Below, one piece after another: positions 13,705-33,802 of a DNA stretch of 64,000 nt. Positions within the stretch are counted from its first letter, which is position 1. Each line of letters opens with the position of its first letter. Both the position numbers and the translations under genes were made by a program. Source of the stretch: Amycolatopsis sp. 2-15 (GTDB taxonomy: Bacteria; Actinomycetota; Actinomycetes; Mycobacteriales; Pseudonocardiaceae); NCBI RefSeq assembly GCF_030285625.1, contig NZ_CP127294.1:3730001-3794000 (forward strand). The letters run 5' to 3'. The notes beneath the pieces were generated by a model. It saw only the letters and a program-made list of their open reading frames with translations. It searched no databases and was not told the origin of the DNA.

Positions 13705-13705
13705 T

Positions 13706-17298: not shown

Positions 17299-18714
17299 TC
17301 AGTGCAGCAAGCCGGTCAGCTCCGAGAGGTCGCCCAGGCCGGCCAGCCCGTAGGTCAGCTCCGTGATCCGATCGGCCGTCTCCGCGGAGACCACGCGGGT
17401 GGCGTTGAGGCGGAACTTCGTGGCCAGCTCGTCGGCCGACAGCGGGTTGTCCGGGCCGCCGCGGTTCACGTCCACGCGTTCCTCCACCTCGGTCCCGTCG
17501 GTCAGCCGGGCCCGCAGGACGGCGGGGAACTGGTGCGGGAAGATCTCGTCACACCGAGAGTCCGGCACACACGTCACCTTGGCCGCCAACGCGAGCCGCT
17601 CGGGGTCCGCCGCCGCGGAGTCGGTGAAGTCCTCGTGGAACACGCCCAGCCCGCCGCCGCCGAGGAACGCCGCCGCGACCGTGTACGGGCCGGAGAACGC
17701 CGCGTGGTAACCCGACTTCGGGTGGATCTTGTCCTCACGCGGCTCGCCGATGGTGCGCAGCACGGCCGTCGGCGCGCCGAGCTCCAGACTGGTGATCGAA
17801 GCCGGATCCACGCCCCGGGCCCGCAGCCGGCGCGCGGCGTCGATGCCCGCGTGCGTGAAGTGGTTGCAGGGATACGGTTTGAAGAAGATCCCCGGCAGCT
17901 CCCAGTCGGTGCCGAGCCCGGTGACGATCTCGTCGACGTGAGCCTGGTCCCCGCAGAACGCCTGCAGGAAGCCGAACCGGCCCTCCAGCACGGTCGGCGG
18001 GCCGGTGATGCCGTGGCGCGCCATGCCGGCCGCGGTCACCGCGGCGTGCGCGGCCCAGCCGCAGTGCACGCGCTTCACCGTGCCGCCGGTGCGGTTGGCT
18101 TCCAATAGGCCGGAGCCCATGCTGGCCGCGATGCCGATGGCGTCGGCGATCCCGGATTCGTCCACATCGGACAGCATCGCGGCGGTGGCCGCGGCACCGA
18201 GGGCGCCGCAGATCGCCGTGGCGTGCAGGCCGTGCTCGAAGAACACGGAGTTGCCGAGCTCCTCGTCGTATCCCGCCATGCCGAGCCGCACGGTGATCTC
18301 GACGCCGACACCGATCGCGTCGAGCAGCTGCGCGCCCGTGGCACCACGGGATTCGGCGACGGCGAGCGCCGCGGGCACGACCGAGGCCGACGGGTGCAGC
18401 ACCGAGGGCAGGTGCGTGTCGTCGAAGTCGAGCGAGTGCGCGAGGGTGCCGTTGAGCAGGGCCGCGCTCGGGTCGGGCAGCTTCTCACCACTGCCGATCG
18501 CGGTGGCCCGGCCGTTGCCGCCCCACTCCCGAACGAGCGCGCCCACGGCCGCGGCCGGACGTTCACCGGTAGCGGCGAGGCTGTTGCCCAGCACGTCGAG
18601 CACCCGCCGGGCGGCATCTTCGCGCAGCTCCGGGGGCAATCCCTTGGCGCGCACGGAAGCGGCGAACTCCGCGACGCGCTGCACGATCGTTTGCGTGATG
18701 GCGGTCTGGGTCAT
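17299..18714 (-). CDS. MmgE/PrpD family protein
   Basis: 471 residues of the 2-methylcitrate dehydratase/cis-aconitate decarboxylase fold. Features: the N-terminal all-helical domain with SLDFDDTH, GVEITVRLG and FEHGLHATA; GTVKRVHCGWAAHAAV; and the small C-terminal domain after GYHAAFSGPY. PrpD relatives dehydrate, isomerise or decarboxylate tri- and dicarboxylic acids; many members in catabolic islands have unknown substrates. It overlaps the preceding cyclase gene by 4 nt, forming a two-gene unit whose promoter carries the 25-bp box at 19563. A second, distantly related MmgE/PrpD gene lies in the importer operon at 26651. Confidence 0.88.
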   Translation of the reverse strand: MTQTAITQTIVQRVAEFAASVRAKGLPPELREDAARRVLDVLGNSLAATGERPAAAVGALVREWGGNGRATAIGSGEKLPDPSAALLNGTLAHSLDFDDTHLPSVLHPSASVVPAALAVAESRGATGAQLLDAIGVGVEITVRLGMAGYDEELGNSVFFEHGLHATAICGALGAAATAAMLSDVDESGIADAIGIAASMGSGLLEANRTGGTVKRVHCGWAAHAAVTAAGMARHGITGPPTVLEGRFGFLQAFCGDQAHVDEIVTGLGTDWELPGIFFKPYPCNHFTHAGIDAARRLRARGVDPASITSLELGAPTAVLRTIGEPREDKIHPKSGYHAAFSGPYTVAAAFLGGGGLGVFHEDFTDSAAADPERLALAAKVTCVPDSRCDEIFPHQFPAVLRARLTDGTEVEERVDVNRGGPDNPLSADELATKFRLNATRVVSAETADRITELTYGLAGLGDLSELTGLLH

Positions 18715-19532
18715 GCCGTCACCGCCGCGAGCGGACGCACGGGGGAGCCGGTGCCGCCGACGATCCGCAGCGGCGCCAGCACGAACACGAACTCCGACAG
18801 GCCTTCCTCGGCCACCGCTTCGAGGTTCAGGTGCTCCATGATGAAGATCCCCGACTGCACCAGGAGAATCCGGTGCACCGGCAGCACCGCGTGTCCGGCG
18901 CCGGCCGGGATCTGCTCGTACGCCGTGGTGTCCGAGCCGGTGGCGGCGATCTTGCGCTCGGCCAGCCACTCGGCGGCGGAAGTCGCCGCGCCCGGAACAC
19001 CGGTCTCCTTGCCCAGATACGCGGCCGTGTCACCGAAGTTGCGGGCCCACCCGGTGCGGATCAGCGCGACGTCACCCGGACCGGGCTCGGTGCCCGCGCT
19101 CTTCGCGGCGGCTTCGAGGTCCTCGGCCGTGACGCCGTAACCCGGCTCCAGCGTGGGAACGCCGTGCACAGCGGCGACGTCGAGCAGGACCGCGCGGCGC
19201 AGCAGGCCGGGCAGGTTCTCGGCGCCGTGCGTGCGGAACACGCCGCCCTGCTGGGCCTCGGCCGCGTCGACGCCGCCGTGCAGCTCACCGTCGTGGCTGA
19301 CGTGCGAGAGCGCGTCGATGTGGGTGCCGACGTGCCCGCCGGTCACGATGATCTCGTTGGCCGCCGAACCGCCGTCCGGGCGGCGCATGTCGCCGTGGCG
19401 GCGGATCAGGGTCATCCGGAACCCGGGATGGTTCGGCGAGCAGGGCATGCCGGTGAAGAACGGCTGACCGAGCTCGATCAGCCGGACCCCGCCGGCGACC
19501 GCCGCCAGCAACGGATCCTGGGTACGTGTCAT
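18711..19532 (-). CDS. Cyclase family protein (kynurenine-formamidase-like metal hydrolase)
   Basis: 273 residues with the family metal motif HVGTHIDALSH near residues 68-78. Members are Mn or Zn amidohydrolases such as bacterial KynB or isatin hydrolase that open cyclic amides or hydrolyse formamides. First gene of a two-gene minus-strand unit with the MmgE/PrpD gene. The start lies about 30 nt downstream of the shared 25-bp box. In context it may hydrolyse an amide or lactam intermediate (inference). Confidence 0.85.
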   Translation of the reverse strand: MTRTQDPLLAAVAGGVRLIELGQPFFTGMPCSPNHPGFRMTLIRRHGDMRRPDGGSAANEIIVTGGHVGTHIDALSHVSHDGELHGGVDAAEAQQGGVFRTHGAENLPGLLRRAVLLDVAAVHGVPTLEPGYGVTAEDLEAAAKSAGTEPGPGDVALIRTGWARNFGDTAAYLGKETGVPGAATSAAEWLAERKIAATGSDTTAYEQIPAGAGHAVLPVHRILLVQSGIFIMEHLNLEAVAEEGLSEFVFVLAPLRIVGGTGSPVRPLAAVTA

Positions 19533-19562
19533 GAGTGCGTGCCTTCCTCGACGTGCCGTTCG

Positions 19563-19587
19563 TTACCAATCCGACCACAGCCACGGC
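19563..19587 (-). promoter_or_regulatory. 25-bp catabolic-island box, copy 1
   Basis: A 25-bp element beginning TTACCAATCCGACC on the plus strand is identical, inverted, to 30078-30102. Both copies lie 30-40 nt upstream of a start codon (cyclase at 19532; amidohydrolase at 30141) and in the same orientation relative to it. A third partial copy is at 30011. Likely operator or operator plus promoter of the local IclR regulator (inference from position). Confidence 0.75.
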
Positions 19588-19595
19588 CGAATGCC

Positions 19596-20480
19596 TTACG
19601 TAGCAACGGTTGCGTCCTGTTCGGGGGTCGGCCTACTTTTGGCCGGATCAGTAACATGCTTTTCTCCCGACTCCGCGAGCGCGAGCACCCAGCGGGCGCG
19701 GGCCACGATCGCGGCGTCGACGAACTGTCCGTGGTCATCGATCCAGGCGGCGTCGCCCGACGACTCGAGGCGGCCGAGCAGCTCGCGCGCCCACGCCGTC
19801 TCCGCCGGATCGGGAGCGCACACCTCGTGCACCACGGGAATCTGGGACGGGTGGATCACCGACCGGCCGAAAAACCCGGCGCGGCGTCCCGCTTCGGTAC
19901 TCGCGCGCAATCCGTCGAGGTCGCGCACGGCGGTCCACACGCTCTGCACCGGGCTCGGCAGCCCGGCCGCGCGCGCGGCGACGACCACCCGAGACCGCGG
20001 CCACACCAGCGCAGGGCTGTCAGAGCCACCGGCCACGCGCAGGTCGGCGGCGAGATCCGCTTCACCAAGGGAAATCCCGGCGACGAGCGGGTGCGCGGTG
20101 GCCAGCGCGAGCGCGTTCTCCACGCCCAGCGCCGATTCGAGGATCGGGTACAGCGCCACGCCGAGCGTGTCGGCGACGCAGCGCAGCTCGTCCGGGTCCT
20201 CGGCTTTGGGCACGCGCACCCCGGCAGGCTTGCCGTCCGCCGCCGCCAGCGCGGCCAGGTCTGCCTCACCGGCGGCAGTGGCGGGGGCGTTGATCCGCAC
20301 ATAGATCGCGGCGCCTTCGGCCAGCGTCGTCACCACGGTGCGGCGCGCCTCGTCCTTGGCGGCCACCGCGACGGCGTCCTCCAGGTCCACGACCACGGCG
20401 TCGGCCGGGCCCGCGAGCGCCTTGGCGATCCGGTCGGGCCGGTCGCCGGGCACGTAGAGCCAGCTGCGCACCACCGTCAC
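19596..20480 (-). CDS. HpcH/HpaI aldolase / CitE-like acyl-CoA lyase
   Basis: 294 residues of the CitE-like TIM-barrel family (malyl-CoA, citramalyl-CoA and beta-methylmalyl-CoA lyases). Visible are SWLYVPGDRPDRIAKAL at the N-terminus, DLEDAV (Mg-binding), PKAEDPDEL, ILESALGVENA with the Mg-ligand Glu, and GRSVIHPSQIPVV near the C-terminus. The GTG start overlaps the CoA-transferase stop by 4 nt, so the pair is co-translated: a CoA ester made by the transferase, perhaps after hydration, would be cleaved here into a short acyl-CoA and an oxoacid. Cytosolic. Exact substrate unknown. Confidence 0.88.
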   Translation of the reverse strand: MTVVRSWLYVPGDRPDRIAKALAGPADAVVVDLEDAVAVAAKDEARRTVVTTLAEGAAIYVRINAPATAAGEADLAALAAADGKPAGVRVPKAEDPDELRCVADTLGVALYPILESALGVENALALATAHPLVAGISLGEADLAADLRVAGGSDSPALVWPRSRVVVAARAAGLPSPVQSVWTAVRDLDGLRASTEAGRRAGFFGRSVIHPSQIPVVHEVCAPDPAETAWARELLGRLESSGDAAWIDDHGQFVDAAIVARARWVLALAESGEKHVTDPAKSRPTPEQDATVAT

Positions 20481-21664
20481 TTGATCACGCCTTTTTCGCG
20501 CAACGAAGCCAGCTCCGGCTCGCCGAAGCCATAGCGGCCGAGGATCTCGGCGGTGTGCGCGCTGAGCGGCGCACCGGTCGACGTGATCCCGCCCGGCGTC
20601 TCCGACAGCCGGAACAGCACGTTCTGCATCTTCACCGGACCGAGCTCGACGTCGTCGACGGTCGTGATGCTGCCGAGCGCCGCGAACTGCGGGTCGGTCA
20701 TCACGTCGGCGGCGGTGTAGATCGGCGCGACCGCGGCCTGTGCCTCTTCGAACGCCTTCACCACGTCGTCGCGGTCGCGCTCGGCGATCCACGAGCCGAC
20801 CGCGTCGTCGAGCTCGTCGGCGTGCTTCGCGCGTTCCGCACCGGTGGCGAACCACGGCTCGTCGACCAGCTCCGGGCGCCCGACCAGGCGCATCACGCGT
20901 TCCGCGATCGACTGCGCGCTCGTGGAGATGGCGACCCAGCTGCCGTCACGGGTGCGGTAGGTGTTGCGAGGCGCGTTGTTCGTGGAGCGGTTGCCGGTGC
21001 GCGGCTGCAGCGTGCCGAGCTGGTCGTAGGCGATGATCTGCGGCCCGAGCAACGTCAGGATCGGTTCGATGATGGCCAGGTCCACGACCTGCCCGCGCCC
21101 GGTCTGCTCGCGCGCCCGCAGTGCCGTCATCACCGCGAACGCGGTGGTCAGCGCTGCGATGCCGTCGGCGAGACCGAACGGCGGCAGCGTGGGCGGGCCG
21201 TCGGGCTCGCCGGTGATGGCGGCGAACCCGCTCATCGCCTCGGCGAGCGTGCCGAAGCCGGGGCGCTTCGAGTAGGGGCCGATCTGCCCGAAACCGGTCA
21301 CACGCGTGAGCACCAGTCCGGGGTTGATCTCGCGCAGCTCGTCGTAGCCCAGCCCCCAGCGCTCCAGCGTGCCCGGGCGGAAGTTCTCCACGACCACGTC
21401 GGCGTCGGCCACCAGCTTGCGGAAGATCTCCTGGCCCTCGGGGGAACCGAGGTAGAGCGTGATGGCCTTCTTGCCGCGGCCGAGCATCTTCCACCACAGG
21501 CCGACCCCGTCGCGCTGCGCGCCGTGGCTGCGGACCGGGTCGCCGTTCGGGTGCTCGATCTTGATCACCTCGGCGCCGTAGTCGCCCAGCAGCGTCGCGG
21601 CCAGCGGGCCGGCGAACAGGGTGGCGGTGTCGAGTACCCGGATCCCGGACAAAGCGCCCGTCAT
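20477..21664 (-). CDS. CaiB/BaiF family III CoA-transferase
   Basis: 395 residues with the complete family pattern: ALSGIRVLDTATLFAGP at the N-terminus, LGDYGAEVIKIEHPNGDPVR, the nucleotide-binding region near KKAITLYLGSPEG, and VVENFRPGTLERWGLGYDEL, in which the catalytic-type Asp lies upstream near residue 170. Transfers CoA between carboxylic acids without a free acyl-phosphate. First gene of a minus-strand unit with the CitE-like lyase; divergent from the importer operon. Likely activates the dicarboxylic acid generated by the pathway (inference). Confidence 0.9.
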   Translation of the reverse strand: MTGALSGIRVLDTATLFAGPLAATLLGDYGAEVIKIEHPNGDPVRSHGAQRDGVGLWWKMLGRGKKAITLYLGSPEGQEIFRKLVADADVVVENFRPGTLERWGLGYDELREINPGLVLTRVTGFGQIGPYSKRPGFGTLAEAMSGFAAITGEPDGPPTLPPFGLADGIAALTTAFAVMTALRAREQTGRGQVVDLAIIEPILTLLGPQIIAYDQLGTLQPRTGNRSTNNAPRNTYRTRDGSWVAISTSAQSIAERVMRLVGRPELVDEPWFATGAERAKHADELDDAVGSWIAERDRDDVVKAFEEAQAAVAPIYTAADVMTDPQFAALGSITTVDDVELGPVKMQNVLFRLSETPGGITSTGAPLSAHTAEILGRYGFGEPELASLREKGVIK

Positions 21665-21928
21665 GGGGCCTACCTGCCTTTCTCATCCGGCGGCCGAGAC
21701 TCGTGCTCGTTGTTTCGCCGGGAGGAACAACTGTGAACGCGATGTTTCCAACCCTTGTCGCGGGCTGGTCACCAAATTCGCACTGATCACAGCGTTCCGT
21801 CAAGTTATGCGCAGATATTGACCTGACGTGGAGGCCGGTGTCACGATATCCGGCAACAATCCCGGTGTTTCTCCAAGCGGAACGCCGATGCTGCCAGCGG
21901 GAAGAGGCTTCCATTGGGAAGAGGTGAC
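21665..21928. promoter_or_regulatory. Divergent promoter region, CoA-transferase / importer operon
   Basis: 264 bp between two divergent operons with no gene. An inverted repeat GTTGTT (21709-21714) / AACAAC (21726-21731), 11-nt spacer, lies just upstream of the CoA-transferase gene. The 25-bp island box is absent here, so this pair of promoters may be controlled differently. GAAGAGG precedes the importer start at 21929. Confidence 0.5.
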
Positions 21929-23176
21929 ATGTCCGCGCGAAAGCTCACCGCCGTGCTCAGCGCGTGCGCCCTGTTCGCGGCGGCCGGGTGCGGAGGTTCG
22001 GCCCCGGCCGGGGCCGGTGGCGCGGCCGCAGGCCGGGACGAGGGCCCGGTGAAGATCGGGGCGTTGCACCCGGTCAGCGGATCCAACGCCGTCGACGGGC
22101 TCCAGATGCGCCGGGGCGCGCAGATGGCGGTCGACGCGATCAACGCGGCCGGCGGCATCAAGTCTCTCGGCGGCCGCAAGGTCGAACTGATCACGGGAGA
22201 CACGCAGGGCAAGGCCGACATCGGCCAGAGCGAAGCCCAGCGGCTGATCTCCGCCGGCGCCGTGAGTCTCGTCGGCACCTACCAGAGCGCGGTGAGCACC
22301 AACGTCGCCGTGGTCGCGGAACGCAACCGGGTCCCGTTCGTGATGGACGTGACCGCCTCGGACGCGATTTTCGGCCACGGCTACCGGTACTCGTTCCGCG
22401 TGCAGCCCGGCAGCAAGGCGATCGCCACCGCCGCCGCGCAGTACCTCAAGGAGGTTTCGGAGCAGGCCGGGAAACCGGTCCACAAGGTGGCTTTCCTGCA
22501 CGAGCAGAGCGATTTCGGCAGCGGCGCGGCCGACGCGTTCAACGCCGCGGCGCAGCAGCTCGGGATGGCCGTCGGGCCGAACATCAGCTACGACGCCACC
22601 ACCGTCAGCGACCTCACGGCGCAGATCACGCAGGTCAAGGCCTCGGGCGCCGACGTGCTCGCCATCGCGGGCTACTACCGCGACAGCCTGCTGGCCGCGA
22701 AGGCCATCGACTCGGTGAAACCGGCGCTCAACGCCGTGTGGGGCGTCTCCAACGGCGCCTTCGACCAGCCGAAGTTCGTGACCGACGCCGGGAAGCTCGG
22801 CGCGCTCTACTTCAGCGCCAACTACCACTACGACGCCACCAACGCGCAGACTGTCGCGTTGCGCGAGAAGTACCAGCGCCAGTTCGGTGACCCGATGCGC
22901 ACCGGCGCCGTGCTGTCCTACGACGCGGTCGACGTGATCGCGCAAGCGGTCGAGAAGGCCGCGAGCACCGATCCCGAGAAGGTCCGCGACGCGATCGCCG
23001 CGTCCCAGGTCGCTCCGCTGACCGTGGGACACGGGCCGATCTCCTTCGCGGCCAACGGCGACAACCGCAACGCGTTCCCCGTCCTGATGCAGGTCCGCGA
23101 CGGTCAGGTCAAGCAGGTCTTCCCCCCGGACAAAGCCGAATCCCGGCCCGACTACACGGTGAACTGGCGGCCATGA
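21929..23176 (+). CDS. ABC transporter substrate-binding lipoprotein, branched-chain amino acid type
   Basis: 415-residue extracytoplasmic binding protein. A lipoprotein signal has a basic start, a hydrophobic core and lipobox AAGC with Cys21 as the lipidation site. The mature protein has a type I periplasmic-binding fold: VKIGALHPVSGSNAVDG, GVSLVGTYQS-like strands and the hinge near GSGAADAFN. The start is the ATG at 21929, preceded by GAAGAGG; an upstream TTG at 21914 is less likely. Such proteins also bind aromatic acids, ureas, short amides and dicarboxylates, so the ligand should be judged from the pathway, not the family name. First of eight tightly coupled genes. Confidence 0.9.
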   Translation: MSARKLTAVLSACALFAAAGCGGSAPAGAGGAAAGRDEGPVKIGALHPVSGSNAVDGLQMRRGAQMAVDAINAAGGIKSLGGRKVELITGDTQGKADIGQSEAQRLISAGAVSLVGTYQSAVSTNVAVVAERNRVPFVMDVTASDAIFGHGYRYSFRVQPGSKAIATAAAQYLKEVSEQAGKPVHKVAFLHEQSDFGSGAADAFNAAAQQLGMAVGPNISYDATTVSDLTAQITQVKASGADVLAIAGYYRDSLLAAKAIDSVKPALNAVWGVSNGAFDQPKFVTDAGKLGALYFSANYHYDATNAQTVALREKYQRQFGDPMRTGAVLSYDAVDVIAQAVEKAASTDPEKVRDAIAASQVAPLTVGHGPISFAANGDNRNAFPVLMQVRDGQVKQVFPPDKAESRPDYTVNWRP

Positions 23177-24189
23177 GCGAACTCTCCCCCGGGGCCACGC
23201 TGGCCCCCGAATTCTCCCCTCCGGACGACACCAAAGCCCGCCAGCGCAAGGCTTTCCTCAGCCGCGCCGGCGTGGTCGCCATCGTGCTCGTGGTCGCGAT
23301 CGTCGTCGCGCTCCTGCAGTCGGGCAGCGGCCTGGTGGTCTGGCAGTCGGTGGTCACCGGCATCCTCACCGGCGGGCTCTACGGCCTGATCGCGATGGGG
23401 CTGACGCTGATCTTCGGCGTGCTCGACATCGTCAACTTCGCCCACGGCGCACTGCTGGCCGTCGCGATGTTCATCTCCTTCGGCATGGTGGCCGGCACCG
23501 GCATGCACCCCTACCTCACGCTGATCGTGGCGGTTCCCGCGTTGTTCCTGGTCGGCGCCGCCGTGCACCGCGGGCTGCTCTCGGGTTCCGCGGGCAAGAC
23601 GCTGGAGAACCAGCTGCTCATCACGCTCGGGCTCTCGTTGCTGCTGGAGAACCTGCTGCTGATGTTCTTCGGCGCCGAGCCCAAGAGCATCGCGCTGCCG
23701 GGCGACTTCCAGTTCTCCTTGCTGGGCGCGATTGTCGCGGGCTCGCGGCTGTACGCGTTCCTCGGCGCGATCCTGCTCGGCGCGGTGCTGTTCTGGCTGC
23801 TGCGCCGCACGCGGCTCGGCACGGCGATCCGCGCGGTCGCCGCCCACGGCCCGGGCGCCGAGCTCGTGGGCATCAACGTGAAGCGGATCCACACCGTCAC
23901 CTTCGCGATCGGCACAGCCTGCGCCGGCGCCGCCGCGGCACTGGCGGGACCGCTCGTCACGGTGACGCCGACGCTCGGCGAGCAGTTCAACATCACCGCG
24001 TTCGTGGTGGTGGTGCTCGGCGGGATGGGCAACGTCCTCGGCGCGCTCGTCGGCGGCCTGCTGATCGGGCTGGTCGAGCAGCTCACCACGATCTACCTCG
24101 GCGGCCAGAGCTCCCTGCTCGGCGTGTTCGTGGTGTTCGTGCTGGTGCTGTTCCTCCGTCCGCAGGGCCTGTTCGGGAGGCGAGCATGA
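23173..24189 (+). CDS. ABC transporter permease, LivH type
   Basis: 338-residue inner-membrane subunit with about eight predicted helices and the family stretch IAMGLTLIFGVLDIVNFAHG near residues 72-91. A somewhat polar 30-residue N-terminal extension precedes the first helix. It overlaps the binding-protein stop by 4 nt and the LivM-type gene by 4 nt. Pairs with the next permease to form the import channel. Confidence 0.92.
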   Translation: MSELSPGATLAPEFSPPDDTKARQRKAFLSRAGVVAIVLVVAIVVALLQSGSGLVVWQSVVTGILTGGLYGLIAMGLTLIFGVLDIVNFAHGALLAVAMFISFGMVAGTGMHPYLTLIVAVPALFLVGAAVHRGLLSGSAGKTLENQLLITLGLSLLLENLLLMFFGAEPKSIALPGDFQFSLLGAIVAGSRLYAFLGAILLGAVLFWLLRRTRLGTAIRAVAAHGPGAELVGINVKRIHTVTFAIGTACAGAAAALAGPLVTVTPTLGEQFNITAFVVVVLGGMGNVLGALVGGLLIGLVEQLTTIYLGGQSSLLGVFVVFVLVLFLRPQGLFGRRA

Positions 24190-25235
24190 CTGCCATCACC
24201 ATTGCCGGACCGGCCGGCGCGACCGAGAAGGTCAAGGCGCCGCCGCTGCGTCCGCAGAACCGGCAGTACGCGATCCTCGCGCTGCTCGTGCTCATCGCGG
24301 TGCCGCTGCCGCTGATCCTGCCGGCGGCGCAGGGCGCGGTCGCCGTGCGGATCCTGATCTTCCTGCTCATGGCCGTGGGCTGGAACATCATGAGCGGGTT
24401 CGGCGGGATGTTCAGCTTCGGCCACGCCGCGTACTTCGGGCTCGGCGCGTACACCAGCGCGTACCTGCTGGTGAAGCAGAACGTGTCGCCGTGGATCGGG
24501 ATGCTGGCCGGGATGGCGGTGGCCGCCGCGGTCGCCGTGCTCATCGGCTACTTCTCGTTCCGCTACAAGCTGCAGGGCGCGTACTTCGCCCTGGCTACCT
24601 TCGCGTTCGCGGAGATGCTGCGGCTGATCGTGACCAGCAGCACGTTCGCCAACAAGTCGGTGGGCTTCAGCGTGCCGCTGATCCAGGGCTCGTCGCTGTG
24701 GCTCATCCAGTTCCCGGCCGACTCGCCCGCGTACTTCTGGGTGGCGCTCGTGCTGGCCGGGGCCGCGGTCGCCGTCAGTATCGGGTACCTGCACTCGCGC
24801 GCCGGCCGCTACGTCACCGCGATCCGCGACGACGAGCTGGCGGCGTCTTCGCTCGGGGCGCCCGTGATGCGGCACAAGCTGACGACGGTGGCGCTCTCGG
24901 CGGCGATCACCGCCGTGGCGGGCGCCTTCTACACGCAGTACTACCTGTTTGTGAACCCCGATCTCGGGTTCGGCTCCGCGATCTCGATCCAGGCGATCGT
25001 GCCCGTGGTGATCGGCGGCATCGGCACGATCTGGGGCCCGGTGGTGGGCGCGATCATCGTCGGCTCGCTCACCGACGTCACGGCGACGCTCTTGCGCACC
25101 CCACCCGGGTTCCTCGGGTTCCTGCAGGGCCGCAGCGGGCTCGACGTGGTGCTCTACGCCGTGCTGCTGATCCTCATCGTGCGGTTGCTGCCGAAGGGCA
25201 TAGTCGGGACGCTGACTGCGAGGTGGCGGCGATGA
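24186..25235 (+). CDS. ABC transporter permease, LivM type
   Basis: 349-residue membrane subunit with the LivM hallmark SGFGGMFSFGHAAYFGLGAY and a second conserved region near GSAISIQAIVPVVIGGIGT, which provide the ATPase-coupling loop. About nine to ten predicted helices. Four-nt overlaps with both neighbours. Heterodimerises with the LivH-type subunit. Confidence 0.92.
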   Translation: MTAITIAGPAGATEKVKAPPLRPQNRQYAILALLVLIAVPLPLILPAAQGAVAVRILIFLLMAVGWNIMSGFGGMFSFGHAAYFGLGAYTSAYLLVKQNVSPWIGMLAGMAVAAAVAVLIGYFSFRYKLQGAYFALATFAFAEMLRLIVTSSTFANKSVGFSVPLIQGSSLWLIQFPADSPAYFWVALVLAGAAVAVSIGYLHSRAGRYVTAIRDDELAASSLGAPVMRHKLTTVALSAAITAVAGAFYTQYYLFVNPDLGFGSAISIQAIVPVVIGGIGTIWGPVVGAIIVGSLTDVTATLLRTPPGFLGFLQGRSGLDVVLYAVLLILIVRLLPKGIVGTLTARWRR

Positions 25236-25966: not shown

Positions 25967-26654
25967 CAAGGTCTGCGCCGGTTACGGGCGCATGCGGATC
26001 CTCCACGACGTGGACCTGGAGCTGGCCGCGGGCGAGATCGTCGCCCTCGTCGGGGCCAACGGCGCCGGCAAGACGACAACGCTGCGCAGCATCTGCGGCC
26101 AGCTGAAACCGATGTCGGGCACCATCACGCTCGACGGTGAGCCGACCGCGGGCCGCCGCCCCGACCAGCTGGTGCGCGAGGGTCTCGTGCACGTGCCCGA
26201 GGACCGCGCGCTGTTCGGCACGCTCACCGTGGAGGAGAACCTCCGCATGGGCGCGTGGACGCGCACCTCGGCACAGGCCACGAAATCGCTGAAGGAGGTC
26301 TACGAACTGTTCCCGGTGCTCGCCGAGCGCCGGAGCACGGTCGCGCAGACCTTCAGCGGCGGGCAGCAGCAGATGCTCGCAATCGCGCGGGCGCTGATGG
26401 CCGGGCCGCGGCTGCTGATGCTCGACGAGCCCTCGACCGGGCTGTCGCCGAAGCTCACGTGGACGATGCTGGAAGCGGTGCAGCGGATCCGCGACACCGG
26501 TGTGGCGGTGCTGCTGGTGGAGCAGAACGCCAAGCAGACATTGGCCATCGCCGACCGGGCGTACGTTCTGGAGAGCGGGTCGACCGTGCTCGCGGGCACG
26601 GGCGCCGAACTCGCGGACGACAGCCGGGTCAGGAAGGCGTACTTGGGACTGTGA
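25953..26654 (+). CDS. ABC transporter ATP-binding protein, LivF type
   Basis: 233-residue ATPase with Walker A GANGAGKTT, the LivF-specific LVHVPEDRALFGTLTVEENL, signature FSGGQQQM, Walker B LLMLDEPSTGLSP and H-loop typical EQNAKQTL. The GTG start overlaps the previous gene by 14 nt. Partners the LivG-type ATPase. Its stop overlaps the MmgE/PrpD start (GTGA), which ties transport to catabolism in one transcript. Confidence 0.92.
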   Translation: MLKLDKVCAGYGRMRILHDVDLELAAGEIVALVGANGAGKTTTLRSICGQLKPMSGTITLDGEPTAGRRPDQLVREGLVHVPEDRALFGTLTVEENLRMGAWTRTSAQATKSLKEVYELFPVLAERRSTVAQTFSGGQQQMLAIARALMAGPRLLMLDEPSTGLSPKLTWTMLEAVQRIRDTGVAVLLVEQNAKQTLAIADRAYVLESGSTVLAGTGAELADDSRVRKAYLGL

Positions 26655-28006
26655 AAACGGAACAGGCCACCGAAGCGACCGCGGCGCTCGGCGCGTGGGT
26701 GTCCGAAGTGGACGTCACGGCCGTGCCGGCCGCCGTGCTGGACCGGCTCGCCCTGGTGCTGCTCGACGTCGTCGGCGTGACGGCGATCGGCGCAACACTG
26801 GCCGAGCAGCGGGCGTTGGTCACGGCTTGGCGGGCTCCGGACGGTCCTTCGCCGTTGATCGGGGCCGGGCGGCTGGTCTCCACGGACGCCGCCGCCTGGC
26901 TCAACGCGATGGCGCTCGTGTCGCTGGAGCTCGACGAGGGCAACAAGTACGCCAAGGGCCACCCCGCGGCCCACGGTTTCCCCGCGGTGCTGGCGCTGGC
27001 GGCCGAACTGGACAGCACCGGCGCCGACACGGCGGCGGCGCTGCTGGCCGCGTACGAGGTGGCGTCGCGCTTCGGCCGCGCCACCTCGTTGCGCGCGGGC
27101 GCGCACCCGCACGGCAGCTGGGGTGTGCCCGGCGCGGCGGCCGGGTGCGCGCGGCTGCTGGGTCTTTCGCCCGGCGCGACCGCGGCGGCGATCGACACCG
27201 CGGCCGGGATGGCCATCGCCGGGCACTTCGACTCGGCGACGCAGGGCAACCCGGTGCGCAACGCGTGGCTGGGCGCCTCGGCGATGTCCGGGCTCGCCGC
27301 CGCGCGGATGGCGGCGGCGGGCATGGCGCGTACGACGGGCACAGCCGCGCTCTCGCTGGGCACGGTGCTGGGCTCGTTCGACGCGGCCGAGCTGACCACC
27401 GAACTCGGCACGCGGTGGGACATCGCGCGCGGCTACTTCAAGCGGCACGCGTCGTGCTCCTTCACGCACCCGGCGGCCGACGCCGTGCTGGAGCTACGGA
27501 GTTCGGGGGAGTTCCGGGCCGACGGCATCACGAAGATCGTGGTGGAGAGCCACCTGCTGGGCGCCGGACTGTCCGGAGTGGGCTGGTCGAACCGGCTCTC
27601 GGCGATGTTCTCCACGCCGTTCGTGGTGGCCACGGCCGCGCTCACCGGCGAGGTCGCGCCGGGTTCGGCCCTCGACGATCCGGACGTGCGTGCGCTGGCG
27701 CGGCGCGTACGGCTCGTCGAGGCGGCCGACCTCACCGCGCGCCTGCCCGACGAGCGCGCGACCCGGGTGCAGGTGTGTCTCGACGACGGCACCACGCTCA
27801 CGCGTGAGGTGCCCAACCCGGTCGGCGACGCCGACCACCACCCGCTGACCGAGCCGGACGTGCTCGGCCTGCTGAAGACGTGGCTGCCGCAGCAGCCCGA
27901 ACTCGTGGACCGGGCCGCCGTGCTGGGCCACGAACTGCCCGGCCTGCTCCGCGTCGGCGCGGCGCTGCGCGAGCTGGCCGGGACCGACGAGAAGGAGCTG
28001 AACTGA
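26651..28006 (+). CDS. MmgE/PrpD family protein (second copy)
   Basis: 451 residues; family features include LEQRALVTAW-type helices, SLELDEGNKYAKGHPAAHGF, where the DEG-KGHP region corresponds to DDTH-type active-site residues, AYEVASRFGRA and YFKRHASCSFTHPAADAV. It differs clearly from the PrpD at 17299, which has FDDTH and CNHFTHAG at the equivalent places, so the two probably act on different intermediates or stereoisomers. GTG start overlapping the ATPase stop. Confidence 0.87.
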   Translation: MKTEQATEATAALGAWVSEVDVTAVPAAVLDRLALVLLDVVGVTAIGATLAEQRALVTAWRAPDGPSPLIGAGRLVSTDAAAWLNAMALVSLELDEGNKYAKGHPAAHGFPAVLALAAELDSTGADTAAALLAAYEVASRFGRATSLRAGAHPHGSWGVPGAAAGCARLLGLSPGATAAAIDTAAGMAIAGHFDSATQGNPVRNAWLGASAMSGLAAARMAAAGMARTTGTAALSLGTVLGSFDAAELTTELGTRWDIARGYFKRHASCSFTHPAADAVLELRSSGEFRADGITKIVVESHLLGAGLSGVGWSNRLSAMFSTPFVVATAALTGEVAPGSALDDPDVRALARRVRLVEAADLTARLPDERATRVQVCLDDGTTLTREVPNPVGDADHHPLTEPDVLGLLKTWLPQQPELVDRAAVLGHELPGLLRVGAALRELAGTDEKELN

Positions 28007-28641
28007 TGCGTGCCCTCGCGGTGACGCCCATCCACCTGCCCGCCGATGAGGTCGCCCGGCGCCAGGCCCGCTACGACCGCCTCGCGCCGCCGGGCGTGGA
28101 GATCGAGCTGCGCAACGTGGGCCCGGCCGGGCCGGCCACTTTGGACACCGCCGGGTCGATGCGGGACTCGGAGCGGGAAGTCGCCGCGCTGCTCAAGGAG
28201 GCGGGCGGCGGCTTCGACCTCGCGTTCCCGGACTGCGTGCTCGACCCGTCGGTGCCCGACGTCGTTGCCGACCCGGCGCTGCCGGTGCACGGCATCCTCA
28301 AGCTGTCGGCGACGCACCTGGCCGGCAAGGGCGTGCGGTTCGGTGCCGTGGTGCGCAACGAGGCCATCAAGGACGAGTTCGCCGACCGGATCTCCGCGTA
28401 CGGGCTCGACGAGTACCTCGCCGGCATCCGCGTGCTCGACCTGCCGTTCTCCGCGATCGCCGAGACCGAGGTGTGGAACGCGGCGCTGGGGTCGGCCGTG
28501 CGCGAGCTGGCGGAGCTGGGCGCGACGGCGGTGATCAACGGCTGCTCGGCGGTCGACGTCGAGCCGGCCGACCTGCCGGCGCGGATCGTCGACCCGACGG
28601 AGCTTGCGATGCGGCTGCTCGCCGTCGAGGGGGCGCGGTGA
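28006..28641 (+). CDS. Asp/Glu/hydantoin racemase family protein
   Basis: 211 residues of the cofactor-independent two-cysteine racemase/isomerase superfamily (aspartate, glutamate and hydantoin racemases, maleate isomerase, arylmalonate decarboxylase). The catalytic Cys pair is visible: FPDCVLD at Cys77 and INGCSAVD near residue 180, so racemase or cis-trans isomerase chemistry is possible, rather than a single-Cys decarboxylase. Overlaps its upstream neighbour by one base (TGATG). With a hydantoinase-like gene 1.5 kb downstream, hydantoin racemisation is one option; maleate-type isomerisation is another. Confidence 0.8.
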   Translation: MRALAVTPIHLPADEVARRQARYDRLAPPGVEIELRNVGPAGPATLDTAGSMRDSEREVAALLKEAGGGFDLAFPDCVLDPSVPDVVADPALPVHGILKLSATHLAGKGVRFGAVVRNEAIKDEFADRISAYGLDEYLAGIRVLDLPFSAIAETEVWNAALGSAVRELAELGATAVINGCSAVDVEPADLPARIVDPTELAMRLLAVEGAR

Positions 28642-30002
28642 GCGACGGACCGGACCTCGTCGTCGCCGGCGCCGGTGGCGGGCTCGCCGGTGCGCTGCGG
28701 GCGGCGGAGCTGGGGCTGAGCGTGCTCGTCGTCGAGGCGAGCGAGCACTTCCGGCGGGGCAACAACACGTCGATGTCCACGGCCATGTTTCCCGGCGCGG
28801 GTTCGCGCTGGCAGGCCGAGGCGGGCGTCGAGGACTCGCCGGAGCAGTTCGTCGCCGACATCATGGCGAAGACGAAGGGGCAGGCCGACCCGCGGCTGGC
28901 CCGGACGCTCGCCTCGGTGAGCGCACCGCTGGTCGAATGGCTCGCCGATTCGGCGGGGTTGCCGCTCTCGTTGGTGACGGACTTCAACTACCCCGGCCAC
29001 GCCGTCACGCGCTGCCACTCGATCCCCGGCCGCCACGGTTCGGGCGTGATCGACCACCTGGCGCGGCGCGTCACCGAGCACGAGAACATCGAGCTGCTGG
29101 TGCCGGGCAAGCTCATCGAGGTGCTGTCCGGTGAGGACGGTGTGCGCGCGGTCGTGGTGCGCTACCCCGACGGCATCGAGGAAGAAATCCCGACGCGTGC
29201 GGTGCTGCTGGCCACCAATGGCTTCGGCGCCGACAAAAACCTCGTGGCCCGGCACCTGCCGGAGATCGCCGGAGCGCTGTACCAGGGCAGTGACCAGTCG
29301 CTCGGCGACGCGTTGCGCATCGGCGAGAAACTCGGTGCCGCGACGGGATTCCTCGACGCGTACCAGGGCCACGGCGCGGTCGCGGCCAACGCCGGCACGC
29401 TCGTGGGCTGGGCGACGATCATCCACGGCGCGTTCCTCGTCGACCTCGGTGGCCGCCGCTTCGGCGACGAGACGCGCGGCTATTCGGAGTATGCGGCGGA
29501 GCTGGCCGCGCGGGAAGGCTCGACCGGCTGGATCGTACTGGACGAGACGATTTTCGAGCAGTGCCAGCCGTTTCAGGACTTCCGGGACACCGTCGCGTCG
29601 GGTGCGCTGGTGTGGGCCGACGACGCGGCCGGCCTGGCCGCCGTGACGGGCCTACCGGCGGACGCGCTGGCCGCTGAGCTGTCCGGTGTGGCCGCGATCG
29701 CCCGCGGCGAGCGGGCGGACGAGTTCGGCCGCACCAACTGGGAGCGCCCGCTTTCGGGCCGCTACGCCGCGGTGCGTGTCGTGCCCGCGTTGTTCCACAC
29801 CCAGGGCGGCCTGATGGTCGACGAGAACGCGGCCGTGCTCGACGCGCAGGGCAACCCGATCCGGGGCCTCTACGCCGCCGGCGGCGCGGCCGCGAGCATC
29901 TCCGGCCACGGCGCCGCCGGTTACCTGCCGGGCAACGGGCTGCTACCCGCGTTCGGCCTCGCCTATCTTGCCGCGGGCGACGTCGCCCGCCGTCACCACT
30001 GA
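28638..30002 (+). CDS. FAD-dependent oxidoreductase, fumarate-reductase/KstD flavoprotein family
   Basis: 454 residues. An N-terminal FAD Rossmann motif LVVAGAGGGLAGALRAAELG is followed by VVEAS (ribose-binding acidic end), the capping domain, the second FAD contact VLLATNGFG and the C-terminal family box GGLMVDENAAVLD then GLYAAGGAA and GYLPGNGLLPAFG. Members reduce or desaturate C-C bonds next to a carbonyl (fumarate, urocanate, 3-ketosteroids). GTG start in a GTGA overlap. Last gene of the importer operon. Probably a soluble enzyme, since no signal is seen. Confidence 0.87.
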   Translation: MSDGPDLVVAGAGGGLAGALRAAELGLSVLVVEASEHFRRGNNTSMSTAMFPGAGSRWQAEAGVEDSPEQFVADIMAKTKGQADPRLARTLASVSAPLVEWLADSAGLPLSLVTDFNYPGHAVTRCHSIPGRHGSGVIDHLARRVTEHENIELLVPGKLIEVLSGEDGVRAVVVRYPDGIEEEIPTRAVLLATNGFGADKNLVARHLPEIAGALYQGSDQSLGDALRIGEKLGAATGFLDAYQGHGAVAANAGTLVGWATIIHGAFLVDLGGRRFGDETRGYSEYAAELAAREGSTGWIVLDETIFEQCQPFQDFRDTVASGALVWADDAAGLAAVTGLPADALAAELSGVAAIARGERADEFGRTNWERPLSGRYAAVRVVPALFHTQGGLMVDENAAVLDAQGNPIRGLYAAGGAAASISGHGAAGYLPGNGLLPAFGLAYLAAGDVARRHH

Positions 30003-30010
30003 CTTTCCTT

Positions 30011-30102
30011 TTACCAATCCGACCCATAAGTAGGCGGGCACGCAACGGGACGGTTACCGCGTCAGGCAACGGTTCCCGCCGTGGCTGTGGTCGGATTGGT
30101 AA
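30011..30102 (+). promoter_or_regulatory. 25-bp island box, copy 2, with an inverted half copy
   Basis: TTACCAATCCGACC at 30011-30024 faces its exact inverse GGTCGGATTGGTAA at 30089-30102, spacer 64 bp; the latter is the end of the full 25-bp box (30078-30102) shared with 19563-19587. The arrangement could support DNA looping by a dimer-of-dimers regulator. It lies between the FAD gene and the amidohydrolase, showing that the latter has its own promoter. Confidence 0.75.
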
Positions 30103-30140
30103 ACAATCAGCACAGCCCATACCGCAAGCGGAGGAGAAGA

Positions 30141-31610
30141 ATGGCAACCACGGAACTGCTCGTGAAGAACGTCCGGGTCGTCCGGCCCGACGACCCCGAC
30201 GGGTCGCAGCCGGAACTGCTGGACATCGCCGTCAACGACGGCAAGATCACGCGGGTGGCGCCGAACCTGCCCGAGGACGACGCCGCCCGGGTGGTCGACG
30301 GTCGCGGCCTGCTGGCTTTCCCCGGCGTGGTCGACGCGCACCAGCACTGGGGCATCTACAACGAGCTCGCCACCGACACCCGCACCGAAAGCCGCGCGAG
30401 CGCGCAGGGCGGCGTCACCACGTCGCTGACCTACATGCGCACGGGCCAGTACTACCTGAACAAGGGCGGCAGCTACCGCGACTTCTTCCCCGAGGTCCTC
30501 TCGGCGGCGCAGGGCAACGCGTACGTGGACTACGCGTTCCACCTCGCGCCGATGAGCTCCGAGCACATCTCGGAGATCCCGTACCTCGTCGAGGAACACG
30601 GCGTCACGTCGTTCAAGATCTTCATGTTCTATGGCAGCCACGGCCTGCACGGCCGCTCGACCAGCCAGAGCGACTTCCTCATGATCCCGCCCGATGAGCG
30701 CTACGACATCGCGCACTTCGAGTTCGTGATGCGCGGTGTGCAGAACGCGCGCGAGATCCTCACCGAGTACGCGCCGCACCTGTCGCTCTCGCTGCACTGC
30801 GAGACGGCCGAGATCATGACCGCGTACACGAAGCTGGTGGAGCAGGACGGTTCGCTGTCGGGCCTGCGCGCGTACAGTGCTTCGCGGCCGCCGCACTCCG
30901 AAGGCCTCGCGGTGACCATCGCGTCGTACCTGGCGCACGAGACGGGCCTGCCGAACATCAACCTGCTGCACCTGTCGTCGGAGAAGGCGCTTTCGGCCGC
31001 CTTGACCATGGCGTCGGCGTTTCCCCACATCGACTTCCGCCGCGAGGTGACCATCGGCCACCTGCTCGCGGATGTGGACACGGCTTCCGGCATCGGCGGC
31101 AAGGTCAACCCGCCCTTGCGCGAACGCGAGGACGTCGAGGCCCTCTGGCGCCACGTCCTGGCCGGCAACGTCGACTGGGTCGTCAGCGACCACGCCTGCT
31201 GCCGCGACGAACTCAAGTTCGGCGCCGACCGCGACGACGTCTTCCTGGCGAAATCCGGCTTCGGCGGCGCCGAGTACCTCCTGCCGGGCCTCGTCGGCGA
31301 GGGCGCCAAGCGCGGCCTCTCGCTGCAGCGCATCGCCCAGCTCACCTCGACGAACCCCGCCCGCCGCTACGGCCTGCTCACCAAGGGCACCATCGCCGAG
31401 GGCTACGACGCCGACTTCGCCCTCGTCGACCCCGACGTCCGCTGGACCGTCCACGCGGCCGACTCGGAGTCCACCCAGGAATACACCCCGTTCGAGGGTT
31501 TCGACATGACCGCCAAGGTCACCGACACCTTCGTCCGCGGCCACCACGTCTACACCGACGGCAAAATCACCGGCGACCCCATCGGCCACTACCTCAAGCG
31601 CGGCCGCTGA
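30141..31610 (+). CDS. Hydantoinase/dihydropyrimidinase-like amidohydrolase
   Basis: 489-residue cyclic-imidase-type enzyme with all ligands for a binuclear metal site: HQH at His67/His69, the carbamylated Lys at about 159 in TSFKIFMFYG, His in LSLHCETAE, His in LLHLSSEK and Asp in VVSDHACC. It hydrolyses ring amide bonds in cyclic ureides or imides; the substrate loops are not diagnostic (allantoinase, dihydropyrimidinase and others remain possible). GAGGAGA precedes the ATG at 30141. Own promoter with the 25-bp box, followed by a strong terminator, so it is monocistronic. Confidence 0.88.
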   Translation: MATTELLVKNVRVVRPDDPDGSQPELLDIAVNDGKITRVAPNLPEDDAARVVDGRGLLAFPGVVDAHQHWGIYNELATDTRTESRASAQGGVTTSLTYMRTGQYYLNKGGSYRDFFPEVLSAAQGNAYVDYAFHLAPMSSEHISEIPYLVEEHGVTSFKIFMFYGSHGLHGRSTSQSDFLMIPPDERYDIAHFEFVMRGVQNAREILTEYAPHLSLSLHCETAEIMTAYTKLVEQDGSLSGLRAYSASRPPHSEGLAVTIASYLAHETGLPNINLLHLSSEKALSAALTMASAFPHIDFRREVTIGHLLADVDTASGIGGKVNPPLREREDVEALWRHVLAGNVDWVVSDHACCRDELKFGADRDDVFLAKSGFGGAEYLLPGLVGEGAKRGLSLQRIAQLTSTNPARRYGLLTKGTIAEGYDADFALVDPDVRWTVHAADSESTQEYTPFEGFDMTAKVTDTFVRGHHVYTDGKITGDPIGHYLKRGR

Positions 31611-31622: not shown

Positions 31623-31661
31623 GTGGGCCCTTCACGCTCCGGCGTGGAGGGCCCACTTTTT
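31623..31661 (+). terminator. Rho-independent terminator
   Basis: GTGGGCCC (31623-31630) pairs with GGGCCCAC (31649-31656); inner bases extend the stem (TTCACGC with GCGTGGA), and a T5 run follows at 31657-31661. It ends the amidohydrolase transcript. Confidence 0.9.
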
Positions 31662-31917: not shown

Positions 31918-32745
31918 TCACCTCCCTGCAGAATCCCCCGAATCCCTCAACCAAGCCCAGCTATGCCGTATCTCCTCCGCAGCATCCCTCACCAACACCC
32001 GATACCGCCCCACCACCTCAGGCGTAAACCGATACTCCGGCCCACAAACACTGATCGACCCGTGAATCTCCCCATCCGGCCCGAACAACGGCGCCGCCAC
32101 CGACCCCGCCCCCGGCTGCCGTTCCCCCAACGACACCGCAACCCCTTCACGAGCAGTCTCCGCCAACACCGTCCGCAAATCATCCGCCGCCGTGATCGTC
32201 TTCTCCGTCAACGCCGGCAATTCCCGCCCCAGCACCGCCGCCTGCCGCTCCTCCGGCAGAAACGCCAAGATCACCTTCCCGGACGACCCGGCGTGCAACG
32301 GAAACCGCCGTCCAATGTCGACAGTCATCTTGATCTCACGGGGACTCTCGAACTGATCGAGATACACCCGCTCATCGCCGACCAGCCCGGACAACGTCGT
32401 GGTCTCACTCGTCTCGTCCCGCAGCCGGCGCAACACCGGGGTGGCGACCGTCCGCGCATCGAACCTCCGCAACGCACTCGCCCCCAGCGCCACGGCCGCC
32501 GGACCGAGCCGGTAACCGGCGACACCAGGGTCGGTGGCGAGCATCTCCCGCGAGACGAGCGACTGCAGGATCCGGTGCACCACGGCCTTCGCCAGCCCGA
32601 GCTCCCGGCTGATCGCGCTCACCCCCAGGTACCGGGGCCCGCCGGTAAAGAGCAGCAGCACGTCGGCGACGCGCGCGGCCGCTTCCGTGCCGGCGTTGTC
32701 GGACGAAGCTGCGGGCTTGCGCCCGGCGGTACTGTGGGTGCTCAA
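31918..32745 (-). CDS. IclR family transcriptional regulator
   Basis: 275 residues: winged helix (about 20-90) with LGVSAISRELGLAKAVVHRIL, then an IclR effector domain (about 95-270) with the conserved GSSGKVILAFLP and SVAAPLFGPDGEIHGSISVCG. It lies at the end of the catabolic island facing the amidohydrolase and is the best candidate to bind the 25-bp box. Effector presumably a pathway acid. Confidence 0.88.
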   Translation of the reverse strand: MSTHSTAGRKPAASSDNAGTEAAARVADVLLLFTGGPRYLGVSAISRELGLAKAVVHRILQSLVSREMLATDPGVAGYRLGPAAVALGASALRRFDARTVATPVLRRLRDETSETTTLSGLVGDERVYLDQFESPREIKMTVDIGRRFPLHAGSSGKVILAFLPEERQAAVLGRELPALTEKTITAADDLRTVLAETAREGVAVSLGERQPGAGSVAAPLFGPDGEIHGSISVCGPEYRFTPEVVGRYRVLVRDAAEEIRHSWAWLRDSGDSAGR

Positions 32746-32857
32746 ACCGGTGGTCCTCGGAATTCTGGTTGTGTTCCGCTGATGGGAACGTGGGTGAACT
32801 GCGCACTGGCGCCCAGTTTACCGTTTCCGAGGCATTTTCGGGACCACCCCGTTCCGG

Positions 32858-33802
32858 TCAGCGATACGGCAGCACTCGCGCGAGGGCCTCGACGGCCGCC
32901 GTCGGGTCCGGCCCCGCGGGGATGAACACGACGTGGCCCGCACCGGCGGCCTCGAGCTCGCCGAGCCGGGCCCGGGCGTCGGCCGGGGTGCCGACCACCG
33001 CCAGCTGGTCCACCCACTCGTCAGGCAGCGCCGCCGCGAACTCCTCCTGTGACCCGGCCGCCTTGCGCAGGGCGGCGAACTCCACGGCGAACGGCAACGG
33101 CGCGAGGTGTGGCGCCCAGTCCGGCTCGCCGATCGCCGTGAGCGCCTGCCGGGCCAGGGTCCGCGCGTGGTCGGGGGAGTCGTCGACGGCCGCGACGTTG
33201 TAGGCGATGAGCTCGTGCTCCGCCCCGACGATCTCGCGCACGGCCCGCAGATACTCCGGCGTGACGGGCTCCGCGAGGATCGTCCCGTCCGCCACCTCGG
33301 CCGCGAGCGCCAGCGACTTCGGCCCGCGCACCCCGGCGTACAACGGCGGCACGACCTCCGGCGGGCTCTGCAGCCGGACGTCACGCAGCTGTACTTCGGC
33401 GCCGTCGAAGCCGACGCGCTCGCCGGCGAGGATCGCCCGGACGGTGGTGAAATACTCGCGCAGCAGCGTCAACGGGCTCCCCGGCCACGCCCCGGCCTGC
33501 CGCAGCCACGCCGGCATCCCGTGCCCGATCCCGGCCAGCAGCCGCCCCGGGAACATCCCGGCGAGCGTCGCCACCTCCATCCCCGCGAACGCGACATTCC
33601 GCGCCCCGGCGGGCAAAACCCCGATGCCGACCTGGATCCGCTCGGTCTTCGCCAGCGCCACCGCCGCCTGCGCGATTCCGCCGCGGAAGAAGCAGTCCTC
33701 GACCACCCACAGCTCGTCGAACCCCAGCCGCTCGGCCCGCTGCGCGTAGCCGACGAACTGGGTGACACCGAGATCCGGTGGCGCGACGAGACCGATCTTC
33801 AC
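32858..33802 (-). CDS. LLM class flavin-dependent oxidoreductase
   Basis: 314-residue luciferase-like TIM barrel: MKIGLVAPPDLG, GFDELWVVEDCFF, IQVGIGVLPAGARN, LLAGIGHGMPAW and VVPPLYAGVRGPKSLALAAEVADG, the F420/FMN-binding signature. The GHGMPAW and ADGTILAEP segments are typical of the F420-dependent subset (5,10-methylene-H4MPT-reductase-like), so F420 is the likely cofactor. Its place beside the IclR gene makes it a possible redox enzyme of the same pathway; it is transcribed separately. Confidence 0.85.
   Translation of the reverse strand: MKIGLVAPPDLGVTQFVGYAQRAERLGFDELWVVEDCFFRGGIAQAAVALAKTERIQVGIGVLPAGARNVAFAGMEVATLAGMFPGRLLAGIGHGMPAWLRQAGAWPGSPLTLLREYFTTVRAILAGERVGFDGAEVQLRDVRLQSPPEVVPPLYAGVRGPKSLALAAEVADGTILAEPVTPEYLRAVREIVGAEHELIAYNVAAVDDSPDHARTLARQALTAIGEPDWAPHLAPLPFAVEFAALRKAAGSQEEFAAALPDEWVDQLAVVGTPADARARLGELEAAGAGHVVFIPAGPDPTAAVEALARVLPYR

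Follow-up and report, generated by a model that had tools for sequence, protein, structure and literature searches.

The 64,000-nucleotide stretch of Amycolatopsis sp. 2-15 analysed here (the window), part of a 10.05-Mb single-contig genome, carries an island at positions 17299-33802, in which 14 genes form a module: a caiB-citE-cyc-mmgE1 operon, a divergent sbp-livHMGF-mmgE2-rac-fad-hyd operon, and iclR. In actinobacterial relatives the module is kept together as a unit: its enzymes are mostly retained and its importers are exchanged. We see about an even chance that it is one catabolic regulon, which imports and degrades a small cyclic imide or amide with a branched dicarboxylate skeleton, and is controlled by an IclR-family regulator through palindromic operators.

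On the minus strand lie, in order of position, mmgE1, coding for an MmgE/PrpD family enzyme (17299-18714, 471 amino acids; PF03972 222.5 bits, PF19305 129.4 bits; 56/80), cyc, for a PF04199 'cyclase' metal hydrolase (18711-19532, 273 amino acids; 100.1 bits; 63/80), citE, for an HpcH/HpaI-type C-C lyase of coenzyme A (CoA) esters (19596-20480, 294 amino acids; PF03328 118.7 bits; 66/80), and caiB, for a class III CoA-transferase (20477-21664, 395 amino acids; PF02515 417 bits; 66/80); the fractions indicate the presence of each gene in 80 named loci, described below. They are followed, on the same strand, by iclR (31918-32745; PF01614 139.2 bits, PF09339 44.8 bits; 67/80), whose product is the putative regulator of the module, and by an LLM gene. 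On the plus strand the order is sbp, coding for a branched-chain-amino-acid-type binding protein (21929-23176, 415 amino acids; PF13458 183.2 bits; 50/80), livH-type permease (23173-24189; 51/80) and livM-type permease (24186-25235), both named by sequence reading and gene order, putative livG-type and livF-type ATPases (25232-25966 and 25953-26654), mmgE2, for a second MmgE/PrpD family enzyme (26651-28006, 451 amino acids; PF03972 103.7 bits, PF19305 91.2 bits; 72/80), rac, for a protein of the Asp/Glu/hydantoin racemase superfamily (28006-28641, 211 amino acids; PF01177 47.8 bits, against a cut-off of 31; 80/80), fad, for a flavin enzyme of the fumarate reductase/3-ketosteroid dehydrogenase class (28638-30002, 454 amino acids; PF00890 157.1 bits; 75/80), and hyd, for a hydantoinase/allantoinase-like cyclic amidohydrolase (30141-31610, 489 amino acids; PF01979/PF07969 above cut-off; 64/80).

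An earlier note on this DNA had named all these genes, and each was found with the family and strand given there; Pfam, run on ten island proteins, confirmed the family of every one. The eight genes that it described as tightly coupled are those from sbp through fad, whose coordinates overlap by 1 to 14 bases at every junction (4 bases between sbp and livH); 4-base overlaps are also present, on the minus strand, at caiB/citE and cyc/mmgE1. NCBIfam was searched with nine island proteins and the LLM protein: none of the ten reaches a cut-off, as judged for fad from the best 25 of 28 families and for hyd from the best 25 of 57.

Conservation of the module was evaluated in two sets of loci, which overlap (nine contigs agree in length) and are not independent. 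When 397 genomes of the order were searched for the racemase, 23 matches emerged, one of them in the genome under study. Twenty of the other 22 loci were read at about 20 kb, leaving out the two weakest (L120 and L121), where only rac is visible, in 3.6-kb stretches: citE, caiB, iclR, fad, rac and hyd are found together in 19 of the 20, the exception being locus L141. A collection of named genomes was then scanned with the racemase alignment, and 80 of 118 relatives were kept. All 80 are actinobacterial by title, from Amycolatopsis, Nocardia, Prauserella, Actinomadura, Micromonospora, Streptomyces, Saccharopolyspora and Rhodococcus, and include marine and freshwater metagenome bins. The six enzyme genes cyc, citE, caiB, fad, hyd and rac are all present in 54 of the 80 loci (51 when iclR is also counted); among the 59 loci that are 20 kb or longer, all six are found in 50, and iclR as well in 48. 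The genome-context comparison that the earlier note had proposed thus shows the families co-occurring in relatives; the scattering that it had named as contrary evidence was looked for and did not appear. The module is accessory in the genus, to judge from hyd, which 15 of 80 genomes carry at an E-value of no more than 1e-150. When distances were correlated between island proteins, most values were 0.6-0.97 (0.42-0.67 for mmgE1, in 32 loci); with no neutral control, they carry little weight.

Importer types are swapped among loci. The commonest is the Liv type, with binding protein and permease (sbp and livH) in 50 of the 80 loci; in 15 loci a related major facilitator superfamily (MFS) gene is present instead or nearby. 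Loci L203 and L205 feature a PF13407 binding protein and a sugar-type ABC permease, relatives of which are found in L212 and L219, while L188 and L221 have ABC binding proteins of the NMT1 type. An extra two-gene unit, coding for small PNPOx-like and EthD-like proteins, is seen in six loci (L130, L182, at 12018-12925, L203, at 7620-8584, L205, L212 and L219).

A 17-bp palindrome of the IclR type, GTTCCGCTNAGCGGAAC, is conserved at the module loci: in the caiB-sbp intergenic region, aligned in 27 loci, it is kept twice, once near each operon. The pattern GTTYCKCYWAGCGGAAC, searched with up to two mismatches in the 80 named loci, gave 108 matches, spread over 59 of them. None lies inside an island gene, though these genes account for 875,743 of the 1,519,987 bases (58%); 20 column-shuffled control patterns, in comparison, gave a mean of 1.7 matches and a maximum of 8. 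In all 26 loci where caiB, on the minus strand, is adjacent to sbp, on the plus strand, at least one site falls in the region between them, and 21 have two. Another 61 of the 108 sites are outside the caiB/sbp region, for instance in spacers that separate iclR from sbp, fad, rac or mmgE2, in front of cyc or caiB where the locus is rearranged, and beside the MFS gene in L201; a plasmid of Rhodococcus gordoniae features two sites between iclR and fad. Because of the number of these matches, their absence from island genes and the low yield of the shuffled patterns, the module is most likely one regulon, with its own iclR product as the putative regulator. The earlier note had placed enzymes and importer together, and the conserved operator common to them bears this out. 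The iclR product has both the PF01614 and the PF09339 domains above cut-off, the palindrome stands at promoters as a predicted operator, and the protein would bind it. In the window, a perfect copy (GTTTCTCCAAGCGGAAC) is located upstream of sbp at 21867-21883, while operator-like palindromes with three mismatches are found next to caiB at 21712-21728 (GTTTCGCCGGGAGGAAC), where aligned loci keep GTTTCGC...GGAAC, and, as a weak match that is not found at two mismatches, upstream of iclR at 32773-32789 (GTTCCGCTGATGGGAAC). Throughout the own genome the pattern gave 24 matches, against 13 for a reversed control, too near background to name regulon members outside the island.

Several observations weigh against a single regulon with this function. 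At least one of the seven genes (six enzymes and iclR) is absent in 11 of the 59 long loci, and L186 and L188 each lack five. Four genes (sbp, caiB, citE and cyc) and part of mmgE1 are lost from genome G051 (locus L225), the closest relative; the core on the R. gordoniae plasmid does without rac and mmgE2, which may accordingly belong to a side branch. No operator is found at two mismatches in 21 of the 80 loci, including the groups with CUT2 and NMT1 importers; the window itself has a single site at two mismatches, with three further, weaker places at three, and 47 of the 108 sites fall in the same caiB/sbp region that was used to define the pattern. Moreover, the chemistry cannot be pinned down from families as wide as those of PF04199, MmgE/PrpD, the racemase and the flavin enzyme, which leave room for a lactone or ureide substrate.

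Over 12.5 kb of locus L225, sbp, caiB, citE and cyc are without a match and mmgE1 is incomplete, next to an intact liv-mmgE2-rac-fad part; the hyd of this locus has 98% identity to that of the window along its length, and G051 contains a second hyd at 66% identity.

In hyd, residues H67, H69, K159, H219, H277 and D350 are invariant in all 18 aligned sequences (the window and 17 of 20 related loci; L128, L137 and L141 were left out). Cyclic amidohydrolases, a family including imidase, have a binuclear metal centre formed by four His, one Asp and one Lys, according to PMC9863593; hyd keeps this full set of ligands, which places it in the hydantoinase/allantoinase/imidase superfamily as delimited there. 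In rac, C77 and C180 are invariant in 21 of 21 aligned sequences; the two cysteines, along with the PF01177 score, assign it to the Asp/Glu/hydantoin racemase superfamily, and its predicted structure has a pLDDT of 92.0. No NCBIfam model matched rac, and no PDB sequence matched it at E 0.1. The fad protein was aligned to flavocytochrome c3, whose active-site residues we take to be H365, R402, H504 and R544: only the first of the four is kept (H245), while Y282, F386 and Y429 replace the others and are invariant in 15 of 15 sequences. The best-scoring flavocytochrome c3 chain is the one with Tyr at position 402. With three of four residues different, and a TIGR01813 score of 204.4 against a cut-off of 285.45, fad falls outside the fumarate reductase/flavocytochrome c group; because these three residues are replaced, binding of a free dicarboxylate in the manner of fumarate reductase is unlikely. 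A reasonable guess, by analogy with ketosteroid dehydrogenases, is that the enzyme may act on a neutral ring carbonyl. The solved chains closest to mmgE1 are Bacillus IRG1 and cis-aconitate decarboxylase, aligned through conserved Asp, His and Lys stretches; both mmgE1 (82.9 bits) and mmgE2 (26.3 bits) score far below the 950-bit cut-off of the 2-methylcitrate dehydratase model (PrpD, NF042438). The cyc protein shows a weak match to isatin hydrolase chains, and caiB matches seven NCBIfam CaiB-type models, all below cut-off.

Direct observation extends to the conservation of the module as a unit, the swapping of importers, the shared operator, and the intact metal and cysteine residues; the reactions are read from the protein families. 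The best reading of the substrate, for which the earlier note had offered a cyclic amide or a dicarboxylate, is that both apply in turn, with a cyclic imide or amide becoming a branched dicarboxylate. The binding protein and ABC importer would take up a small cyclic imide or amide; fad would make or remove a C=C bond next to a ring carbonyl; hyd would open the ring to a half-amide, and cyc would remove the amide that is left (or else a lactam or lactone). The rac and MmgE/PrpD enzymes may then isomerise, epimerise or hydrate an unsaturated diacid to a hydroxy diacid, onto which CaiB would transfer CoA, so that CitE could split the hydroxyacyl-CoA into acetyl-CoA or propionyl-CoA and a 2-oxo acid. 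The succession of import, ring opening, isomerisation, CoA activation and cleavage had already been suggested in the earlier note: the co-occurrence of the families agrees with it, the individual steps derive from family knowledge only, and the LLM gene, counted there as a member, drops out.

A cyclic amide or imide is favoured as the substrate because oxoprolinase-type hydantoinase genes (HyuA/HyuB) and an amidase adjoin the module in two loci: beside the core on the R. gordoniae plasmid (L222, 5106-10374) and beside rac and mmgE2 in L141 (about 11520-15640). On a Shinella plasmid (L224), a hydantoinase-like gene, 33% identical, is found beside two aconitases, along with genes of the phosphoenolpyruvate mutase/isocitrate lyase, isochorismatase and MmgE/PrpD families, and possibly marks a different ring-opening pathway.

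A more specific form of the proposal, tentative and as a whole rather improbable, is that of a widespread, undescribed actinobacterial pathway, in which a branched cyclic imide would be mineralised via a CoA-dependent branch under one IclR operator: fad would desaturate the ring to a maleimide-like compound, to be followed by ring opening by hyd, hydrolysis of the half-amide, cis-trans isomerisation or epimerisation by rac, hydration by MmgE/PrpD enzymes, activation by CaiB and cleavage by CitE. If so, actinobacteria living in soil, in water and with plants consume a common and unrecognised class of compounds by a pathway dedicated to it, and functions may be assigned to seven enzyme subfamilies now labelled by superfamily only (e.g. 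'aspartate/glutamate racemase family protein'). The operator provides a direct test: a compound releasing the IclR protein from GTTCCGCTNAGCGGAAC would be the inducer, or close to it.

The earlier note could not match the gene set to a known pathway, and the same holds after the present analysis: every curated cut-off was missed for the ergothioneine, allantoin, hydantoin, itaconate and methylcitrate pathways, which the family matches had suggested, and no description of the gene combination was found in the open-licence PubMed Central literature. Routes related to heme- or chlorophyll-derived maleimides, nicotinate or dimethylmaleate were weighed on chemistry alone, and no evidence for them was found.

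Among the alternatives to a cyclic imide or amide of this kind, a hydantoin or ureide pathway is unlikely, if still the strongest. Here hyd and rac would open a 5-substituted hydantoin or a dihydropyrimidine to an N-carbamoyl acid, from which an MmgE/PrpD enzyme, as a C-N lyase, would release urea or carbamate, along with an unsaturated diacid for the CoA branch. The presence of both cysteines in rac is consistent with this, as is the similarity of mmgE1 and mmgE2 to the iminodisuccinate epimerase chains 2hp0/2hp3, this epimerase belonging to the MmgE/PrpD fold. The best NCBIfam scores of hyd point in the same direction, being those for allantoinase (224.8), AllB (222.5) and the hydantoin-5-propionate amidohydrolase ErtD (196.2), but they are far under the respective cut-offs of 631, 357.85 and 650, and the D-hydantoinase model is similarly missed (183.1 against 393.25). 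No N-carbamoylase family, as needed for a hydantoin-to-amino-acid system, turned up when ten island proteins were scanned with Pfam, and the absence of rac from the R. gordoniae core also speaks against such a route.

Less probable again is a nitrogen-free substrate, a small lactone or sugar-acid-like compound, on which hyd and cyc would act as lactonases or esterases, the rest of the module degrading a branched dicarboxylate. Some loci do feature an MFS importer whose best subfamily is of the D-galactonate type, or the sugar-type PF13407 binding protein; these importer scores, however, are under cut-offs, the commonest importer is of the amino-acid/amide type, and HyuA/HyuB genes with an amidase are associated in two loci. 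Finally, an itaconate/mesaconate-type degradation of a dicarboxylate by CaiB and a citramalyl-CoA lyase, with neighbours unrelated, is very improbable: citE resembles RipC (160.3 bits) and caiB succinyl-CoA:mesaconate CoA-transferase (223.2 bits), but both scores are far under the cut-offs of 375 and 700, no MaoC-type hydratase was seen in the island of the window, and the supposedly unrelated neighbours are conserved together with citE and caiB.

The earlier note had described caiB/citE and cyc/mmgE1 as separate pairs, and hyd as standing alone. The genes are as described; their separation is restricted to this strain and one relative, and is due to insertions of a dispersed repeat. One copy (19541-19656, minus strand) lies between citE and cyc and encodes the last 19 codons and the stop of citE; another (30010-30124, plus strand) lies between fad and hyd. 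In each of the 14 relatives read from the genus, 3-46 nucleotides without the repeat separate fad from hyd; citE and cyc are adjacent, and repeat-free, in 12 of the 14, while L226 shares the insert and L225 has lost both genes. At the fad-hyd junction of L225, the flanks match the window on both sides, and about 111 bases are missing. Since the inserts are absent from these spacers in relatives, the normal layout is that of two continuous divergent operons. The repeat first showed itself through 13 bases shared in front of cyc and hyd, where strong folds were predicted.

The repeat is about 105 bp long, and features a 15-bp outer stem, an inner stem, the conserved stretches AAAAGTAGGC and GCCGTGGCTGTGG, and a conserved tail, GATCGGCACAGTA. 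For its alignment, 60 regions (L039-L098) were chosen by eye, without the matches from other genera and a few of those from the genus itself, and gave, along with the window, 63 distinct copies. In the stems, 95.6% of the cells pair across these copies; 117 double changes are found, against 30.1 in shuffles, and values are far lower when the structure is slid. Cells of G-T type, counted by hand, are 65, and those of A-C type 11 (33 and 10 without column 14): this excess of G-T hints that the repeat pairs as RNA of this strand. According to a covariance model, at least 26 copies are present in the own genome, and matches in at least 45 of 80 genus genomes; these counts are lower bounds, 46 candidates per genome having been scored. 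Outside the genus, among 150 genomes of the family, only three gave matches, with E from 0.0015 to 0.008, near chance. Tandem copies, with a 105-bp period, are seen in L077. The repeat looks like an element of the repetitive extragenic palindromic (REP) or miniature inverted-repeat transposable element (MITE) type, and, being inserted into spacers in a way that is polymorphic among relatives, it moves or has moved. A riboswitch, or a shared regulatory leader, was considered and rejected: the repeat is dispersed, in mixed orientation (as judged with a crude open reading frame caller), it is absent before hyd in all 14 relatives, and Rfam gave no match at gathering score in the window.

Two other features were noted. 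The LLM gene (32858-33802, minus strand) had been included in the island by the earlier note, but its protein, used as a query, matched none of the 20 and none of the 80 related loci; for this reason it is not considered part of the module. At 7393-7479, ARAGORN predicts a tRNA-Ala (cgc) of 87 nucleotides, unusually long for a tRNA-Ala.

Four known systems may be compared with the module. The hydantoinase/racemase/carbamoylase systems for amino acids share with it the combination of a hydantoinase-like enzyme and a two-cysteine racemase-like protein; the island, in contrast, has a CoA branch and a flavin enzyme, and no carbamoylase. Itaconate degradation proceeds by a CoA-transferase, a hydratase and the citramalyl-CoA lyase RipC: CaiB-type activation and CitE-type cleavage are similarly placed as end steps here, whereas the island caiB and citE are far under the curated cut-offs, and extra ring-opening enzymes are present without a hydratase. 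Cyclic imides are reportedly metabolised, in the work of Ogawa, Soong and Shimizu, by a dihydropyrimidinase-like imidase. This is a hydantoinase-family enzyme with the same four-His/Asp/Lys metal centre, which opens a cyclic imide; the pathway is not known to require a CoA-transferase, CitE, a racemase, MmgE/PrpD or a flavin enzyme of its own. The nicotinate pathway of Aspergillus nidulans, with its cyclic imidase HxnM and amidase HxnN (PMC9304392), relies on other protein families, HxnM being likened to PgdA/PuuE proteins, and on no CoA steps in the part of that paper available; that part, all the same, describes ring reduction, opening of an imide ring and hydrolysis of an amide, leading to a dicarboxylate, which is the likeness to the module.

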